Positions 1,318 to 8,819 of a DNA stretch of 33,315 bases are shown here, piece after piece. The stretch's first letter is position 1. Each line of letters opens with the position of its first letter. A program made the translations under genes and the position numbers. Source of the DNA: Gammaproteobacteria bacterium (GTDB taxonomy: Bacteria; Pseudomonadota; Gammaproteobacteria; Steroidobacterales; Steroidobacteraceae); contig VBNH01000054.1 of assembly GCA_005878095.1 (NCBI GenBank), positions 1 to 33,315 on the forward strand. Direction: 5' to 3'. Below the pieces are notes generated by a model. That model was not told where the DNA came from and did not search any database. It saw only the letters and a list, made by a program, of their open reading frames with translations.

Positions 1318-2610
1318 GTGAGCGGCGATGATCGCGCCACATCGCCCCTGCGCTGGGGGGTGCTGGGGCTGGCGGCTGTCGCCATCTTCAGCAGCTACTA
1401 CGAGTCCGATGCGATAGGCCCGATCGCGGATCTGCTCGGCCGCCAACGCGGTTTCACGCAGTCTCAGATCGGCGACCTCACCGCAGTCATCAGTCTGCCG
1501 AACATTCTGCTGGCGGTATTGAATGGACTGCTCATCGATCGCTACGGTCCAGCGCGCGTCACCCTGTGGGCCGCCGCTATCGGTTTCGTGGGCGCCGTAC
1601 TGACCGCGATCGGCACGCCCTATGAGCTCATGTGGACCGGCCGCCTCGTGTTCGGGGTCAGCGAGGGCGCGATCTTCATCTCCCTCGTCGCGGGTGTGGC
1701 ACGATGGTTCTCGCGCAGCGGCATCGCGCTCGCCACGGCGCTGTTCCTCTGTCTTGCCCGGGTTGGATCGTTTTCGCTCGACACCTCACCCTCCTGGGCG
1801 CGACCTCTGTACGACGCGGGCTGGCAGCCGCCCTTATGGCTGGGCGCGGCGCTCACCGGTGCCGGCCTCGTTGCCGCTGTCCTCTTTCGCCTGCTTGATT
1901 CAGCGCACGCGCCGGCGATGTCCACGCGCCCCGCCGAATCCGGGCACCTCAGCTGGCGGGGGATCTGGACATTCGACCTGTCGTATTGGTACATCCTCGG
2001 CCTGCACGTGCTGTACGCGGCGGTCTTCTTTCCGTTCCGTCAGACCTATGCGATCGAGTACCTGCAGCACGTCAAGGGCCTCACGCTGCAGCAGGCCGGC
2101 AACGTGAACTCCGGGGTGTTTGCGGCGGCGGTATTCGCCACACCACTGTTCGGCCTGCTCGCGGACCGCTTTGGACACCGTGCCATGATGCTGACCGTCG
2201 GGACGCTGCTGCTGCCGATCACTTTCATCGTCTTGGGCCTCACCAATCTGACTCCGTGGGCCTCCACCGTGCTGATGGGCGTGAGCTTCGCGCTGGTGCC
2301 GGCGATCATCTGGCCGGCGACAACTCTCATAGTCGAGCCGCGCCGCCTGGGAACTGCACTCGGTGTCATCACGCTGCTGCAGAACGTCGGTCTGTGGGGC
2401 TCCAACCGCATCGCCGGCTGGCTGGCCGACAAGGCCGGAGCGGGTGCGGCGCACCCCGAGGGTTACGCCACGATGATCTGGTTCTTCGGCCTGCTGAGTC
2501 TTGCAGCCCTGACTTCAGTGCTGCTCCTGTGGCAGCGCGAGAGCGGGCCGCACGGTCATGGACTGGAAGTCGCGCGAGTGTCGCCGACGCCGCGCGCGGG
2601 AACGGCCTGA
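1318..2610 (+). CDS. MFS transporter, about 430 aa
   Basis: This is a major-facilitator-superfamily carrier in the inner membrane, of normal length with about twelve hydrophobic segments. The MFS loop motif between helices 2 and 3 is visible as G-L-L-I-D-R-Y-G-P-A-R, and a second copy appears in the C-half as G-L-L-A-D-R-F-G-H-R. The chosen start is GTG at 1318, because no ATG in this frame lies before the first helix; ribosome-binding support is weak. The stop overlaps the start of the next gene (TGATG, shared base 2610), which implies translational coupling. The partner is an enolase-superfamily acid-sugar enzyme, so a sugar acid or related organic acid is a reasonable substrate guess, unproven. 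Confidence 0.85.
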   Translation: MSGDDRATSPLRWGVLGLAAVAIFSSYYESDAIGPIADLLGRQRGFTQSQIGDLTAVISLPNILLAVLNGLLIDRYGPARVTLWAAAIGFVGAVLTAIGTPYELMWTGRLVFGVSEGAIFISLVAGVARWFSRSGIALATALFLCLARVGSFSLDTSPSWARPLYDAGWQPPLWLGAALTGAGLVAAVLFRLLDSAHAPAMSTRPAESGHLSWRGIWTFDLSYWYILGLHVLYAAVFFPFRQTYAIEYLQHVKGLTLQQAGNVNSGVFAAAVFATPLFGLLADRFGHRAMMLTVGTLLLPITFIVLGLTNLTPWASTVLMGVSFALVPAIIWPATTLIVEPRRLGTALGVITLLQNVGLWGSNRIAGWLADKAGAGAAHPEGYATMIWFFGLLSLAALTSVLLLWQRESGPHGHGLEVARVSPTPRAGTA

Positions 2611-3716
2611 TGAAGATAGCCTGCCTCGAGACGTTCGCCAGCGAATTCGTGTGCTTCGTGCGGCTGAGCACCGACACCGGTGCCGTCGGCTGGGGCCAGA
2701 CGTCTACCTACAATGCCGACATCACGGCAACCATCTTCCACCGCCAGGTCGCCCCCTGGGCTCTCGGCGCCGACACGTTCGACATCGACGCGCTCGTCGC
2801 TCGCATCGAGGAGCGTGAGCACAAGTTCCCGGGCAGCTATCGCTGCCGGGCACTGGCCGGCCTCGATACTGCGCTGTGGGACTTGCGCGGCAGGCTTGCA
2901 GGCAAGCCCGTAGTCGAACTCCTCGGCGGTCAGCCGCGATCCCTGCGAGCGTACGCCTCGTCAATGCGGCGCGACATCACTCCCGAGCGGGAAGCCGAGC
3001 GGCTGGTGCGGCTGCGCGACGAGAAGGGCTTCGACGCGTTCAAGTGGCGCGTCGGGGCGGAGTGCGGCCGGGACGTCGATGAATGGCCCGGCCGGACGGA
3101 GGCGATCGTGCCGCAGGTGGCGCGCGCGCTCGGTGACGACGTGGCGAGGCTCGTGGATGCGAACAGCGGCTTCTCTGCGCGTCGAGCCCTCGAAGTGGGA
3201 CGCTTGCTCGAGGCGGAAGGCATCAGCCATTACGAGGAGCCCTGTCCTTACTGGAAGCTCGCGGAAACCAAGCTCGTCACCGATGCGCTCGATCTGGACG
3301 TCGCCGGCGGAGAACAGGACTGGGATCTTGCAACCTGGGAACGCATGATCGACATGCACGCCGTCGACATCGTCCAGCCCGATGTCATGTATATGGGCGG
3401 GATATCAAGGACACTGAAAGTCGTGAATATGGCGGCTGCGGCAGGCATGCCCTGCACGCCGCACAGCGCCAACCTCTCCCTGGTCACGCTCTGCACGATG
3501 CACCTGTTGGGCGCCATTGCGAACGCCGGCAAGTATCTGGAGCTCTCCATCGAGGGCTCGGAGTACTACCCGTGGCAGGACGGCCTGTTCAGTGTCGATC
3601 CCTACGTCGTGAAGGACGGCTGCGTAACCATTCCTTCCGCGCCCGGATGGGGTGTGGAGATCAACCCCGCCTGGCTGCGGGGTGCTGCGTATCGGTGCAG
3701 CAGACATGGAGGGTAG
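2610..3716 (+). CDS. Mandelate racemase/enolase-superfamily enzyme, 368 aa
   Basis: Members of this group abstract a proton alpha to a carboxylate and act as dehydratases, racemases or cycloisomerases on sugar acids, amino-acid derivatives or aromatics. The N-terminal capping domain spans roughly residues 1-115 and the barrel 120-350. Visible are K145 in F-K-W-R (the KxK-type base site, with Arg as the second residue), metal ligands D183 (VDANSG), E209 (HYEEP) and E235 (AGGEQ), then D257 (QPDVMYMGG) and H285 (TPHSANLS), a set compatible with a sugar-acid dehydratase. The ATG overlaps the MFS stop. Choline-sulfatase follows after 51 bases. The substrate is not identifiable from sequence alone. 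Confidence 0.85.
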   Translation: MKIACLETFASEFVCFVRLSTDTGAVGWGQTSTYNADITATIFHRQVAPWALGADTFDIDALVARIEEREHKFPGSYRCRALAGLDTALWDLRGRLAGKPVVELLGGQPRSLRAYASSMRRDITPEREAERLVRLRDEKGFDAFKWRVGAECGRDVDEWPGRTEAIVPQVARALGDDVARLVDANSGFSARRALEVGRLLEAEGISHYEEPCPYWKLAETKLVTDALDLDVAGGEQDWDLATWERMIDMHAVDIVQPDVMYMGGISRTLKVVNMAAAAGMPCTPHSANLSLVTLCTMHLLGAIANAGKYLELSIEGSEYYPWQDGLFSVDPYVVKDGCVTIPSAPGWGVEINPAWLRGAAYRCSRHGG

Positions 3717-3767
3717 GACACCTCAGCATTCTGCATACCGGGTGCGGGTTTCGTGCAACAATTACGC

Positions 3768-5285
3768 ATGCCCGCCCGTCCGAATCTGCTGATCCTGATG
3801 GCCGACCAGCTGACCGCCGGCGCCCTCCCGGCCTACGGCGGCAAAGTAGCCAAGACGCCGCATCTGGATGAGCTGGCCGATGCCGGGGTGGTGTTCGAGT
3901 CCTTCTATTGCAACAGTCCGCTGTGCGCGCCCTCGCGCTGTTCGTGGCTTGCCGGACAGTTGCCGTCGAAGATCGGTGCCTATGACAACGCCGCCGAGCT
4001 CGCCGCGCAGGTGCCAACCTTCGCGCACTACCTGCGCCGCGCCGGCTATCGGACGGTGTTGTCCGGCAAAATGCACTTCTGCGGTCCGGACCAGCTGCAT
4101 GGTTTCGAGGAGCGGCTGACGACGGATATCTACCCGGCCGACTTTGGCTGGACGCCGGACTGGACGCGCTTCGACGAGCGCCCCGGCTGGTACCACACCA
4201 TGGACTCGGTCATCAAGGCAGGGCCGTGCACGCGCACCAACCAGACCGACTTCGACGATGAGGTCGTGTTTGCCGCGCGCCAGAAGTTGTTCGATATCGC
4301 GCGTGGCAAGGACCGGCGTCCGTTCTGCCTCGTGGTGTCGATGACGCATCCGCACGATCCCTACGTGATCCCGGAGCCGTACTGGAATCGCTATCGAGAC
4401 AGCGAGATCGACCTGCCGCGCGTTACGGAGCGCGAGCTCGACGAGGACCCGCATTCACGCCGGCTGCGCCACGTCATCGGCCTGACGCTCGCGCAGCCGA
4501 ACGAGACGCAAATCCGCGCGGCCCGCCGAGCGTATCTCGGCGCGCTATCGTATGTCGACGATCAGATCGGCTCACTGCTGGCGACGCTGCGCCAGGCTCG
4601 ACTCGCTGCGAACACCGTGATCATGGTGCTCGCCGACCACGGCGATATGCTCGGTGAGCGCGGCCTCTGGTACAAGATGAACTTCTTCGAGAATGCCTGC
4701 CGCATCCCGCTGATCGTGCACGCACCTGAGCGTTTCCTGCCGCATCGGGTGTCGGAATCGGCGTCGCTCCTCGATATCCTGCCGACCCTGGTGGATCTCG
4801 CCAGTGAGGGTGAGGCGCTTGCGTACGCCGCGCCGATCGATGGCCGTAGTCTGCTGCCGGCACTCGAAGGCGGTGCGGGACCCGGGCAGGTGGTGGGCGA
4901 ATATCTCGCCGAGGGCGCGGTCGCACCGATCGTGATGATTCGCCGCGGCCGCTACAAGTTCGTGCACTCGGCGGCCGATCCAGACCAGCTCTACGACCTG
5001 ACGGCCGATCCCGATGAACGGGTCAACTTGAGCTCGCGCGCGGACTGCGCCGCGATCGTCGCCGAATTTCGCGCCGAGGTGGCGCGGCGCTGGGCCCTGG
5101 ACGAGATCCATCAGGCGGTTCTCGCGAGCCAACGCCGCCGTCATTTGGTCTATGCCGCCCTGCGTGAGGGGTGCTATCGACCCTGGGACCATCAGCCATT
5201 ACGGGACGCGAGTCGCCTTTACATTCGCAATGACCAGGAACTCAACGATCTCGAAGCGCTGGCGCGTTTTCCGCCCCTGGCCTGA
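3768..5285 (+). CDS. betC: Choline-sulfatase BetC
   Basis: This enzyme hydrolyses choline-O-sulfate to choline and sulfate (EC 3.1.6.6), giving sulfur, carbon or the betaine precursor choline. The sulfatase signature C-A-P-S-R begins at C53, the residue converted to formylglycine. Metal and active-site residues D13 (MADQ), K101 and H103 (SGKMHF), and D290-H291 (LADHGD) are present. The family-specific C-terminal tail (a DASRLYIRN-x4-LNDLE-x-LARFP pattern near the end) separates BetC from other sulfatases. The 505-residue length fits. ATG at 3768 is preferred over an in-frame GTG at 3753 because it puts the first strand at the usual distance. The end overlaps the ChoX-ChoW start by 56 bases. 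No formylglycine-generating enzyme gene is in the window. Confidence 0.93.
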   Translation: MPARPNLLILMADQLTAGALPAYGGKVAKTPHLDELADAGVVFESFYCNSPLCAPSRCSWLAGQLPSKIGAYDNAAELAAQVPTFAHYLRRAGYRTVLSGKMHFCGPDQLHGFEERLTTDIYPADFGWTPDWTRFDERPGWYHTMDSVIKAGPCTRTNQTDFDDEVVFAARQKLFDIARGKDRRPFCLVVSMTHPHDPYVIPEPYWNRYRDSEIDLPRVTERELDEDPHSRRLRHVIGLTLAQPNETQIRAARRAYLGALSYVDDQIGSLLATLRQARLAANTVIMVLADHGDMLGERGLWYKMNFFENACRIPLIVHAPERFLPHRVSESASLLDILPTLVDLASEGEALAYAAPIDGRSLLPALEGGAGPGQVVGEYLAEGAVAPIVMIRRGRYKFVHSAADPDQLYDLTADPDERVNLSSRADCAAIVAEFRAEVARRWALDEIHQAVLASQRRRHLVYAALREGCYRPWDHQPLRDASRLYIRNDQELNDLEALARFPPLA

Positions 5286-7074
5286 GGCGCTCGCGCTGGC
5301 GATGCTGGCAGCGACGCTCGCCAGCACCACCGCGCGCGCGGCCGCGGTGAGTGAGCCGGCCAGCTGCCGCGCCGTGCGGTTGGCGGATGTCGGCTGGACT
5401 GATGTAACGGCGACCACCGCGGTGCTCAGCGCCCTGCTGCGTGATCTCGGCTACGACGCACACACCACGCTGCTGTCGGTGCCGGTGACATTCGCGTCGA
5501 TGAAGCGCGGCAATATCGACGTGTTTCTCGGCAACTGGATGCCCGCCCAGACCAGCGATCGCCGTCCCTACCTCGAGGATCGATCGATCGAGGTGGTGCG
5601 CGAGAACCTCAGCGGTGCGAAATACACGCTGGCGGTACCGGCATACACCTACGCCGCCGGGCTCAGGGACTTCGCCGACATCCAGCATTTCGGCGCCGCG
5701 TTGCATCACACGATCTACGGCATCGAGGCCGGCAACGACGGCAACCATCACATTCTGAGGATGATTCAGAACAACGACTTCGGTCTCGGGGACTTCCGGC
5801 TGGTCGAGTCGAGCGAGCAAGGCATGCTCGGGGAGGTGGCACGGGCCTATGCCGCACACGCGCCGATCGTGTTCCTGGCCTGGGATCCGCACCCGATGAA
5901 CATCCAGTTCGATCTGCGCTATCTCGCGGGTGGGGATTCGGCGTTTGGGCCGAACTACGGCGGCGCCTCCGTGCTGACGCTCACCCGCGCGGGCTATCTC
6001 GCACAGTGCCCGAATGTCGGGCGCCTGCTGCAGAACCTGCAGTTCACGACCGGGGGCGAGAGCGAGATCATGCAGGCGATGGTGGCCGGTGGGCAGCCGC
6101 CGGAAGTCGCCGCGCGCGCCTGGCTGCGCGCCCATCCGACGACGGTCGCACTCTGGCTGCAAGGGGTCGCGGCGAGCGGCGGCCGCACGGCCGGTGACGT
6201 GCGCAGCGGCAGATCCGTCGGTGGCATCGGCGCACAATTCGAGCCCTGGGTGGCCGCGCACAAGCTGCCGGTGGGCCAGGCCATGGAGCGCGGCATCGAC
6301 TGGATAAAACGGCACGCCGGCAGCCTGTTCGCCCTCATCGCCGCGGGCGTCGGCGTGATGATCGCCGCGGTCAGCGGTCTGCTGCACGCGCTGCCCGCGC
6401 TGCCGGTCATCCTCGGCGCGGCCGGGCTGGCCTGGCTATTGCAGCGCTCCTGGTGGCTCACGAGTTTCGTCGCGGCGGCGCTGCTGTTCATCATGAACCA
6501 GGGCTACTGGCAGCAGACCATCGACACCCTGTCGCTGGTGTTTGTCTCGACGCTGCTGTCGATCCTCATCGGCGTGCCGCTCGGAATCGCAGCCGGCCAC
6601 CATCCGCGGCTCAATGCGGCGCTGCGCCCGGCGCTGGATCTGATGCAGACCTTGCCGACCTTCGTCTACCTGATTCCAACCCTGGTGCTGTTTGGCCTGG
6701 GCGTGGTACCGGCGCTGATTTCGACGGTCATCTTCGCTCTGCCGGCCGCGATCCGGCTCACGCAGCTCGGCATCGCCTCCGTGCCGCGCGCGCTGCTCGA
6801 AGCGGGCGAAGCCTTCGGCGCCACGCGCTGGCAGCTGCTCCGCAAGGTGGAGCTACCGAGCGCCGCACCGCTCATTCTGGCCGGAATTACCCAATGCATC
6901 ATGCTCAGCCTATCGATGGTGGTGATTGGCGCGCTCGTGGGCGCCGGCGGCCTCGGTGTGCCGGTGGTACGCGCACTCAATACGGTGCAGGTCGGCACGG
7001 GGGTCGAAGCGGGATTCGTGATCGTGCTGCTGGCCGTGATCCTCGACCGTGTCATGCGTATCAGACGGGCTTGA
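5230..7074 (+). CDS. choXW: ChoX-ChoW fusion: choline-binding domain plus ABC permease
   Basis: One 614-residue chain seems to combine a periplasmic choline receptor and the membrane channel of an osmolyte-type ABC importer. After a signal-like segment (about 18-38), residues 46-310 match ChoX. The aromatic cage W56, W103, Y132, W218 and the contacts D58 and N169 have exactly the spacing known for Sinorhizobium ChoX (W43, W90, Y119, W205, D45, N156). Residues 365-610 are a ProW-like permease with an EAA loop near 524-553. OpuA-type fusions normally put the receptor after the permease; here it comes first. ATG 5230 is chosen for its basic n-region; 5305 is an alternative. No ProV/ChoV ATPase gene follows. 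Confidence 0.88.
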   Translation: MTRNSTISKRWRVFRPWPEALALAMLAATLASTTARAAAVSEPASCRAVRLADVGWTDVTATTAVLSALLRDLGYDAHTTLLSVPVTFASMKRGNIDVFLGNWMPAQTSDRRPYLEDRSIEVVRENLSGAKYTLAVPAYTYAAGLRDFADIQHFGAALHHTIYGIEAGNDGNHHILRMIQNNDFGLGDFRLVESSEQGMLGEVARAYAAHAPIVFLAWDPHPMNIQFDLRYLAGGDSAFGPNYGGASVLTLTRAGYLAQCPNVGRLLQNLQFTTGGESEIMQAMVAGGQPPEVAARAWLRAHPTTVALWLQGVAASGGRTAGDVRSGRSVGGIGAQFEPWVAAHKLPVGQAMERGIDWIKRHAGSLFALIAAGVGVMIAAVSGLLHALPALPVILGAAGLAWLLQRSWWLTSFVAAALLFIMNQGYWQQTIDTLSLVFVSTLLSILIGVPLGIAAGHHPRLNAALRPALDLMQTLPTFVYLIPTLVLFGLGVVPALISTVIFALPAAIRLTQLGIASVPRALLEAGEAFGATRWQLLRKVELPSAAPLILAGITQCIMLSLSMVVIGALVGAGGLGVPVVRALNTVQVGTGVEAGFVIVLLAVILDRVMRIRRA

Positions 7075-8061
7075 GTGCGGCGGCCCTACTCCGTGAAAGC
7101 AGCGGCAAGCATCAGCGTCGATAATCCGGCCGTGTCGTCACCGATCGTTACGGTGACGGGTGTGAGCAAGACATACGCAAGTGGCCTGCAGGCGCTCAAG
7201 CGCATCGACCTGACGATTCGGCGCGGCGAAATTCTGGCACTGCTGGGCCCGAACGGCGCTGGCAAGACCACCTTGATCAACATCATCTGCGGCATCGTCA
7301 CACCGAGCGCGGGCAGCGTCGTGGCGGACGGTCACGATATCGTGCACGACTACCGCGCTGCGCGCAGCAGGATCGGACTGGTGCCGCAGGAGCTCCACAC
7401 CGATGCGTTCGAGAGCGTCTGGGCGACCGTGCGCTTCAGCCGCGGCCTGTTCGGCAAGGCGCCCGATCCTGCGTACTGCGAGAGAGTGCTGCGGGATCTG
7501 TCGCTGTGGGACAAGAAGGACTCGAAGATCCTGACGCTATCCGGTGGCATGAAGCGCCGGGTCATGATCGCCAAGGCGCTGTCGCACGAGCCCCAGATCC
7601 TGTTCCTCGACGAACCGACCGCCGGCGTCGACGTCGAATTACGCCGCGACATGTGGCAGATGGTGCGTCGGTTACGCGAGAGCGGAGTCACCATCATTCT
7701 GACCACCCACTACATCGAGGAAGCCGAGGAAATGGCCGACCGCATCGGCGTCATCAACAGGGGCGAGTTGATCGTGGTCGAGGACAAATCCCTGCTGATG
7801 CGCAAACTCGGCAAGAAGCAGCTGACACTGCAACTGCAGAATCGACTGGTGCAGATTCCGCCAGGGCTGTCCGCCTATCCCCTCGAACTGGCCGATGACG
7901 GGCATGCGCTCGTGTTCACGTTTGATGCGCAGCGCAAGGAAACCGGCATCGCCACGCTGCTGAAGCGCCTCGGCGAACTCGATATCAACTTCAAGGACCT
8001 GCATTCCAGCGAAAGCTCACTCGAAGAGATCTTCGTCAACCTGGTGAGGACCCGGACGTGA
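7075..8061 (+). CDS. ABC-2-type transporter ATPase (YadG/DrrA-like), about 328 aa
   Basis: This is the ATP-binding subunit of an export-type ABC transporter. Walker A (GPNGAGKTT) starts near residue 58, the signature LSGGMKRR and Walker B ([12 protein letters not shown]) follow, and the switch His is in [10 protein letters not shown]. The C-terminal ~90 residues are the accessory domain usual for DrrA/YadG ATPases; there are no CBS domains as in ProV. GTG 7075 abuts the stop of the upstream fusion gene; GTG 7093 or 7132 are possible later starts that remove a non-conserved N-terminus. The end overlaps the permease start (GTGA), so the two are a pair. Cargo is unknown. Confidence 0.88.
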
Positions 8062-8819
8062 ACGTACCTGCGATCGGCGCAATCTACCGCTTCGAGATGG
8101 CACGGACCTTCCGTACGCTGATGCAGAGCATCGCGGCGCCCGTGCTGTCGACATCGCTGTACTTTGTCGTGTTCGGAGCCGCAATCGGCAGCCGCATGGG
8201 CGCCGTCGATGGCGTCAGCTACGGGGCGTTCATTGTTCCGGGCCTCATCATGCTGTCGCTCCTCGGCGAGAGCGTATCGAACGCATCCTTCGGGATCTAC
8301 CTGCCGAAGTGGTCGGGGACGATCTACGAGCTCCTGTCCGCTCCGGTGTCGTATGCCGAAGCGCTGATCGGCTACGTCGGTGCCGCAACCACCAAATCAG
8401 TGATGCTGGGAGTGCTGATTCTCCTCACCGCACGTGTGTTCGTGCCGTATGGAATCGCGCACCCCGTATGGATGGTAACCTTCCTGATACTGACCGCTGT
8501 GAGCTTCAGCCTGCTCGGTTTCATCATCGGCCTCTGGGCCGACAACTTCGAGCAGCTACAGGTTGTGCCGCTGATGATCGTCACGCCACTCACCTTCCTC
8601 GGCGGCGCGTTCTACTCGATCAGCATGCTGCCCTCGATCTGGCAGAAGATCACCTTGTTCAATCCGGTGGTCTACCTGATCAGCGGCTTCCGCTGGAGCT
8701 TCTACGGCGTGTCGGATGTGAATGTCGTCGCGAGCGCCGCCGCGACACTGGGCTTTCTTGCGTTGTGCCTGGTGGTCGTGAGCTGGATATTCAAGACCGG
8801 CTATAAGCTCAAGACTTAG
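8058..8819 (+). CDS. ABC-2-type transporter permease (YadH-like), 253 aa
   Basis: This is the membrane partner of the preceding ATPase. It has six hydrophobic segments and the ABC-2 pattern, including a central [15 protein letters not shown] region and a [16 protein letters not shown] motif before a conserved [16 protein letters not shown] segment. Length is normal for YadH-like proteins. The GTG start at 8058 overlaps the ATPase stop by four bases. Such pairs export hydrophobic or envelope molecules, but substrates are mostly undefined. It is the last gene of the forward cluster; copC converges on it with 65 bases between and no clear terminator hairpin. Confidence 0.88.

Follow-up and report, generated by a model that had tools for sequence, protein, structure and literature searches.

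In Sinorhizobium meliloti, choline uptake through ChoXWV involves a receptor (ChoX), a permease (ChoW), and an ATPase (ChoV), whose genes are described as separate neighbors in the available part of one report (PMC3688454). According to the accessible portions of two others, ChoX encloses choline in a cage made up of W43, W90, Y119, and W205 (PMC4125059; PMC5643546), and the latter text has two carboxyl groups holding the choline hydroxyl. A receptor and a permease of the same folds share one chain in OpuA of Lactococcus lactis (OpuABC, 7ahc), where the receptor is joined via an anchor helix and an 11-residue linker, as stated in the part of PMC11065425 at hand. GlnPQ of the same species carries receptors fused ahead of the permease (available section of PMC8025302). 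Lastly, the multitask ATPases MsmX and MsmK illustrate how a single ATPase encoded at a separate locus can power importers that have none of their own; the 2020 paper describing them, in its accessible portion, reports such sharing only for CUT1 sugar importers (PMC7658222).

The locus considered here lies in a 33,315-nucleotide stretch of DNA (contig VBNH01000054.1, analyzed over its whole length and called the window below) from a soil gammaproteobacterium of the Steroidobacteraceae. On its forward strand, an open frame of 614 residues, choXW (5230–7074), encodes a choline receptor fused to its permease. The NCBIfam profile for ChoX (TIGR03414) matches residues 41–321 with 408.3 bits (cut-off 379.05), and that for ChoW (TIGR03416) matches residues 344–609 with 370.1 bits (cut-off 363) over positions 2–267 of its 267; Pfam concurs (PF04069 and PF00528). 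The receptor domain (5350–6192) aligns to S. meliloti ChoX (2reg) with 335 bits, and the permease (residues 344–614; 6259–7071), with its EAA/coupling region at about residues 517–545, aligns to residues 6–272 of OpuA. Between the two profile matches lies a linker of low model confidence (residues 322–343; 6193–6258). Ahead of the receptor, a signal peptide is predicted at approximately residues 1–38 (5230–5343) from hydropathy and a model helix at 16–36; it consists of a hydrophobic stretch followed by ARA-AA, the site being read by eye. The arrangement given in the initial annotation, with a signal sequence, then the receptor, and then the permease in one chain, is thus borne out. The start codon is putative, as initiation at 5152, where there is another ATG in frame, would lengthen the protein by 26 residues, and from either position the frame is open through the stop at 7074. 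A stop/start break concealed by a sequencing error, which the initial annotation had envisaged between residues 310 and 365, was looked for there and none was found.

A structure model of ChoXW, built from an alignment of 50 of 65 fused proteins including that of the window, has a mean pLDDT of 82. Its receptor superimposes on 2reg with a Z score of 37.4 over 288 residues (3.3 A, 54% identity in the structural alignment), the same fold scores 28.9 against 7ahd, and its permease matches residues 7–250 of 7ahc with a Z score of 18.6 over 227 residues (2.9 A). Of 50 aligned proteins, 33 show both a WLxGV and an HKxPV motif on either side of the linker, and the spacing between the two motifs in these is 26–30 residues with a median of 30. 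Since both profile matches exceed curated cut-offs and the order recurs among loci, chance is no live option, and the receptor-first ChoX–ChoW fusion at 5230–7074 is confirmed.

The initial annotation had further held that such an order demands a topology different from that of known importers. A signal sequence is indeed predicted, but the call for a new topology was overstated, given a junction that falls at residue 62 of the ProW profile and a helix count that agrees with an N-out/C-in permease. Counted by eye from hydropathy and model helices, seven spans run from about residue 388 on, provided that the helix at 364–387 is not one of them; it is hydrophobic, and the parity would reverse were it to span the membrane. 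With seven spans and with the EAA region and C-terminus inside, the permease would therefore begin outside. Escherichia coli ProW has seven spans, and its first 100 residues are periplasmic; the match of its profile (NF008196) to ChoXW begins with profile residue 62, which falls on residue 345. Receptor-less permeases in two other genomes (G036 and G603, see below) keep a signal-like start, consistent with an N-out orientation. With a ProW-type permease that begins on the periplasmic side, a signal peptide plus a tether would suffice to attach the receptor, and no anchor helix of the OpuA kind was seen in ChoXW. On this reading, the fused protein can retain the topology of separate ChoX and ChoW, the tether being the sole addition.

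The initial annotation presented the order as an exception that many proteins of like arrangement would call into question, and in genomes such proteins proved to be plentiful. A collection of 164 loci, reduced to 133 distinct ones by merging those at least 98.5% alike, comprises 66 fused X-W loci, 58 split loci, and nine with ChoW only; within 80 named loci, a set chosen by similarity to the fused query, 48 are fused and 32 are split with X before W. The window's genus is represented by 58 genomes, those around the window being mostly fragmentary bins; 16 have ChoW over the cut-off, and 19 of their 21 matches sit in frames of at least 625 residues, the other two being short frames (397 and 506 residues) with no detectable receptor. 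At the level of the order (a sample of 246 genomes), 20 genomes yielded 24 matches over the cut-off, 23 of them in frames of at least 606 residues, and 21 of 25 loci checked in the order set are fused X-W. In the class sample (369 genomes), the six genomes besides the window's that have just one ChoW match over the cut-off show it in frames of 283–304 residues, and choX is split there. The phylum sample (398 genomes) contains 73 with ChoW at E < 1e-100, and besides the window's own genome only two of the remaining 72 (G782 and G915) carry the fusion; further X-W fusions occur in Caulobacterales and Novosphingobium. Across the phylum the fused form is thus in the minority, but in the window's family it is usual, and it is an inherited group trait. 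Our literature search, of incomplete coverage, found no description of a ChoX–ChoW fusion, of its order, or of a betC-linked choXW.

A quick tree of 106 rows, built after the phylum-wide loci had been thinned by number (two thirds of them being affected), parts 41 split rows from 65 fused rows by one branch (SH-aLRT 96), and a single origin of the fusion would therefore fit. Among the 58 split loci are 20 in which choW opens right behind the choX stop and in the same frame, so the loss of one stop codon could have joined the two genes.

Upstream of choXW on the same strand is the choline sulfatase gene betC (3753–5285; TIGR03417, 797 bits, cut-off 433), the last 56 nucleotides of which overlap choXW if the latter starts at 5230. 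The overlap is conserved, but it is weak evidence for that start, because it is partly the conserved end of BetC read in another frame and because the motif also precedes an unrelated hydrolase (G048 and G049); it was dropped as an argument for the start codon. At two loci (L250, 4397–5479; L251, 4233–5315) an alpha/beta hydrolase stands after betC where choXW would be expected, overlapping the end of betC and carrying the N-terminal motif also found at the start of choXW. Further upstream in the window, an MFS carrier and an enolase-superfamily enzyme (1318–3716) precede betC, a pair seen next to betC–choXW at just two other loci, L031 and L175 (about 96% identity). No choV was found adjoining choXW in the window.

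Fused loci are of two kinds. Of the 66 distinct ones, choV lies beside 44, and betC, without choV, beside 16, the window copy among them; at no locus do the two occur together, and six show neither, their flanks being short at a contig end or locus edge. The betC-linked fusions form two groups on the free quick tree, although the AU test does not reject their grouping as one clade (p 0.54). Thirteen of the 19 betC genomes of the genus have choXW, or a ChoX fragment at a contig end, beside betC; the other six are G004 and G007, G008, G048, G049, and G051, the latter five showing no choXW in the stretch covered. Across the 58 genomes of the genus, choV and betC occur together in 15, choV alone in two, betC alone in four, and neither in 37 (p 1.5e-8 with kinship ignored).

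The window's genome carries a second fused choXW on another contig (C21; L022, 5677–7533). A choV-like ATPase gene of 291 residues (4805–5680) comes next, slightly overlapping it, and then a soxB-type gene (706 bits), while a betI-like frame lies divergently upstream. This ATPase scores 453 bits, below the cut-off of 484, and since its match is limited to positions 12–274 of the 382 in the profile, it seems to be without the C-terminal part, presumably the CBS domains. The ChoV proteins of G010, G573, G600, G603, and G555, unlike that of C21, match the profile to position 380–381.

Of the 17 genomes that carry a betC-linked fusion, 14 encode a choV-grade ATPase at another locus (10 of 13 in the genus and all four examined elsewhere in the family, namely G555, G573, G600, and G603); it was not found in G047, G001, and G042, which are 91, 82, and 62% complete. 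In seven genomes the betC-linked ChoX is the only ChoX found, and the sole choV-grade ATPase is at another locus. Four of these (G013, G045, G052, and G555) have a choV that stands apart from any ChoX or ChoW, with betI- and betA-like genes nearby, or about 6 to 8 kb off in G045; the four ATPase motifs are intact by script in G013 and G052 and readable in the translation of G045. In the other three (G033, G036, and G603), the second locus keeps ChoW and ChoV, the receptor domain is gone, and a signal-peptide-like start is left (L179 on G033:C44, L244 on G036:C85, and L243 on G603:C16). Moreover, a choV-linked fusion of G600 (L245 on G600:C6, 6457–7284), a genome that holds a betC-linked fusion as well, has a ChoX that looks decayed, with 39% identity and a score of 232 bits, under the cut-off. 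The EAA region is where ATPase and permease meet, and its similarity is 75% between the two locus types against 77% within each. Together, the lone choV genes, their intact motifs, and the likeness of the EAA regions suggest that ChoV may serve betC-linked ChoXW in trans. L032 and L055 have a further ABC cluster about 4 kb past choXW, which was set aside as an unrelated importer: it is on the other strand, its ATPase is 37–39% identical to ChoV, and by inspection it has permease-like and receptor-like frames of its own; a generic ATPase is similarly placed in G047 and G010.

The best reading, and one that we consider probable, is that choXW encodes the choline-importer half of a system using ChoV in trans. 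The protein would form the receptor-plus-channel part of a type I ABC importer, with the signal peptide exporting the receptor and the short linker tying it to the permease where the latter begins in the periplasm. Pairing of two ChoXW chains may give two receptors per channel, and ATP hydrolysis would be supplied by the ChoV of the choXW–choV–soxB locus on contig C21. The window copy may have arisen as a paralog inside the fused clade, parted from choV, and settled behind betC, a position that could place choline uptake under common expression with choline-sulfate breakdown.

As to the substrate, the 2reg alignment puts W56, W103, Y132, and W218 of ChoXW at ChoX W43, W90, Y119, and W205, and the complete cage of the initial annotation is thereby upheld; D58 and N169 occupy the places of D45 and N156 of ChoX. 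Across the 16 betC-linked receptors, W56, D58, W103, and W218 are invariant, Y132 is kept in 14 (F in two), and N169 in 13 (S in three). Because the cage tryptophans and D58 are kept throughout and the cage tyrosine in 14 of 16, choline is favored as the substrate of betC-linked ChoXW. In one genome lacking choXW beside betC (G051; L254, 6255–7760), a frame overlapping the betC end has a weak MFS match (32.9 bits, just below the cut-off) and is a possible candidate for a choline-O-sulfate carrier.

Import of choline-O-sulfate itself, the substrate of the adjoining sulfatase, in place of choline is less likely. It would account for the presence of betC beside 16 of the 66 distinct fused loci, and receptor positions 81, 93–95, and 106–109 differ between betC-linked and choV-linked types; moreover, BetC starts without an evident signal peptide, so that its substrate must enter the cell. 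Against it, every betC-linked receptor keeps D58, the counterpart of ChoX D45, and the task could fall to the MFS carrier of the window (1318–2610) or to another carrier. Transporters for choline-O-sulfate exist but are unknown according to the available part of PMC12442346, a gap that ChoXW would fill, yet the carboxyls that hold the hydroxyl in ChoX should repel a sulfate (PMC5643546, accessible portion). A broader version, speculative and itself rather unlikely, has betC-linked ChoXW as a dedicated uptake module for choline compounds encountered in the metabolism of sulfate esters, choline-O-sulfate included, that is without its own ATPase and plugs into the ChoV of the choline/betaine locus. 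This would be a case of a shared motor within the osmolyte family, where two modules would compete for, or even form mixed dimers around, one ATPase. As the choV-linked permease of G033, G036, and G603 has lost its receptor, a mixed dimer carrying a single tethered receptor can be imagined in these genomes.

The remaining alternatives concern the integrity of the protein, its function, and its partner. Cleavage after synthesis into a free receptor and permease, which would make the fusion merely translational, accords with a linker weakly ordered in the model and with split choX and choW being usual elsewhere, but an almost constant linker length in the measurable proteins and no evident second signal peptide between residue 321 and the permease make it rather improbable. 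Still less can be said for a betC-linked copy that no longer transports and is a sensor or a decaying gene: a ChoV-type ATPase gene is absent beside all 16 distinct betC-linked loci, yet the cage and the EAA region are kept, and this copy survives where the other locus has lost its receptor or its whole choXW. The ATPase encoded immediately behind choXW (7075–8061), whose frame starts with the very next base once choXW has ended, would be a partner by position; however, its best match is a drrA-like ABC-2 exporter ATPase (235 bits, below cut-off), an ABC-2 permease comes after it (the pair spanning 7075–8819), and among betC-linked loci examined the pair stands beside choXW only in the window, L031, and L175 (96–98% identity). 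It was rejected as a very improbable partner. The chance that the assembly lost a stop codon or gained a frameshift is negligible: a single base could join the two genes in the 20 split loci with directly abutting frames, but 66 of 133 distinct loci, drawn from different assemblies, have the uninterrupted frame, as does the second fused copy in the same genome, and this explanation was likewise rejected.

The receptor-first order suggests that, in the osmolyte family, the periplasmic end of a permease can itself hold the tether to the receptor, with no added anchor helix, and cooperativity of the OpuA style could thus be tested in a mirror-image layout. Copies linked to betC would be a natural case, outside the sugar importers, in which an importer half has become separated from the gene of its ATPase, and they offer seven genomes in which the partner ATPase can be guessed from gene content. 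BetC-linked ChoXW is, in addition, a candidate transporter by which Gammaproteobacteria of the soil may take up choline or choline-sulfate.

Compared with described systems, ChoXW is closest in its cage and receptor (54% identical to 2reg) to ChoXWV of S. meliloti, the X-W-V gene order of which also recurs in split relatives. It departs from the three-gene arrangement, as X and W form one frame and choV is found elsewhere, on contig C21. With OpuA it shares a receptor and a permease in one chain, but the order is reversed, as the initial annotation had rightly stated: the permease of 7ahc occupies residues 6–272 and its receptor residues 289–575, whereas the receptor of ChoXW (41–321) precedes the permease (344–609) and so is not C-terminal to it as in the OpuA type. 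Two receptors per channel are proposed for ChoXW as in OpuA, tied however at the opposite end. GlnPQ resembles ChoXW in having receptors ahead of the permease, but it belongs to the amino-acid family, has two tandem receptors, comes from a Gram-positive host, and is not a ChoX/ProW protein. The supply of ATPase from a separate locus recalls MsmX and MsmK; unlike theirs, the sharing proposed here would concern a choline importer.
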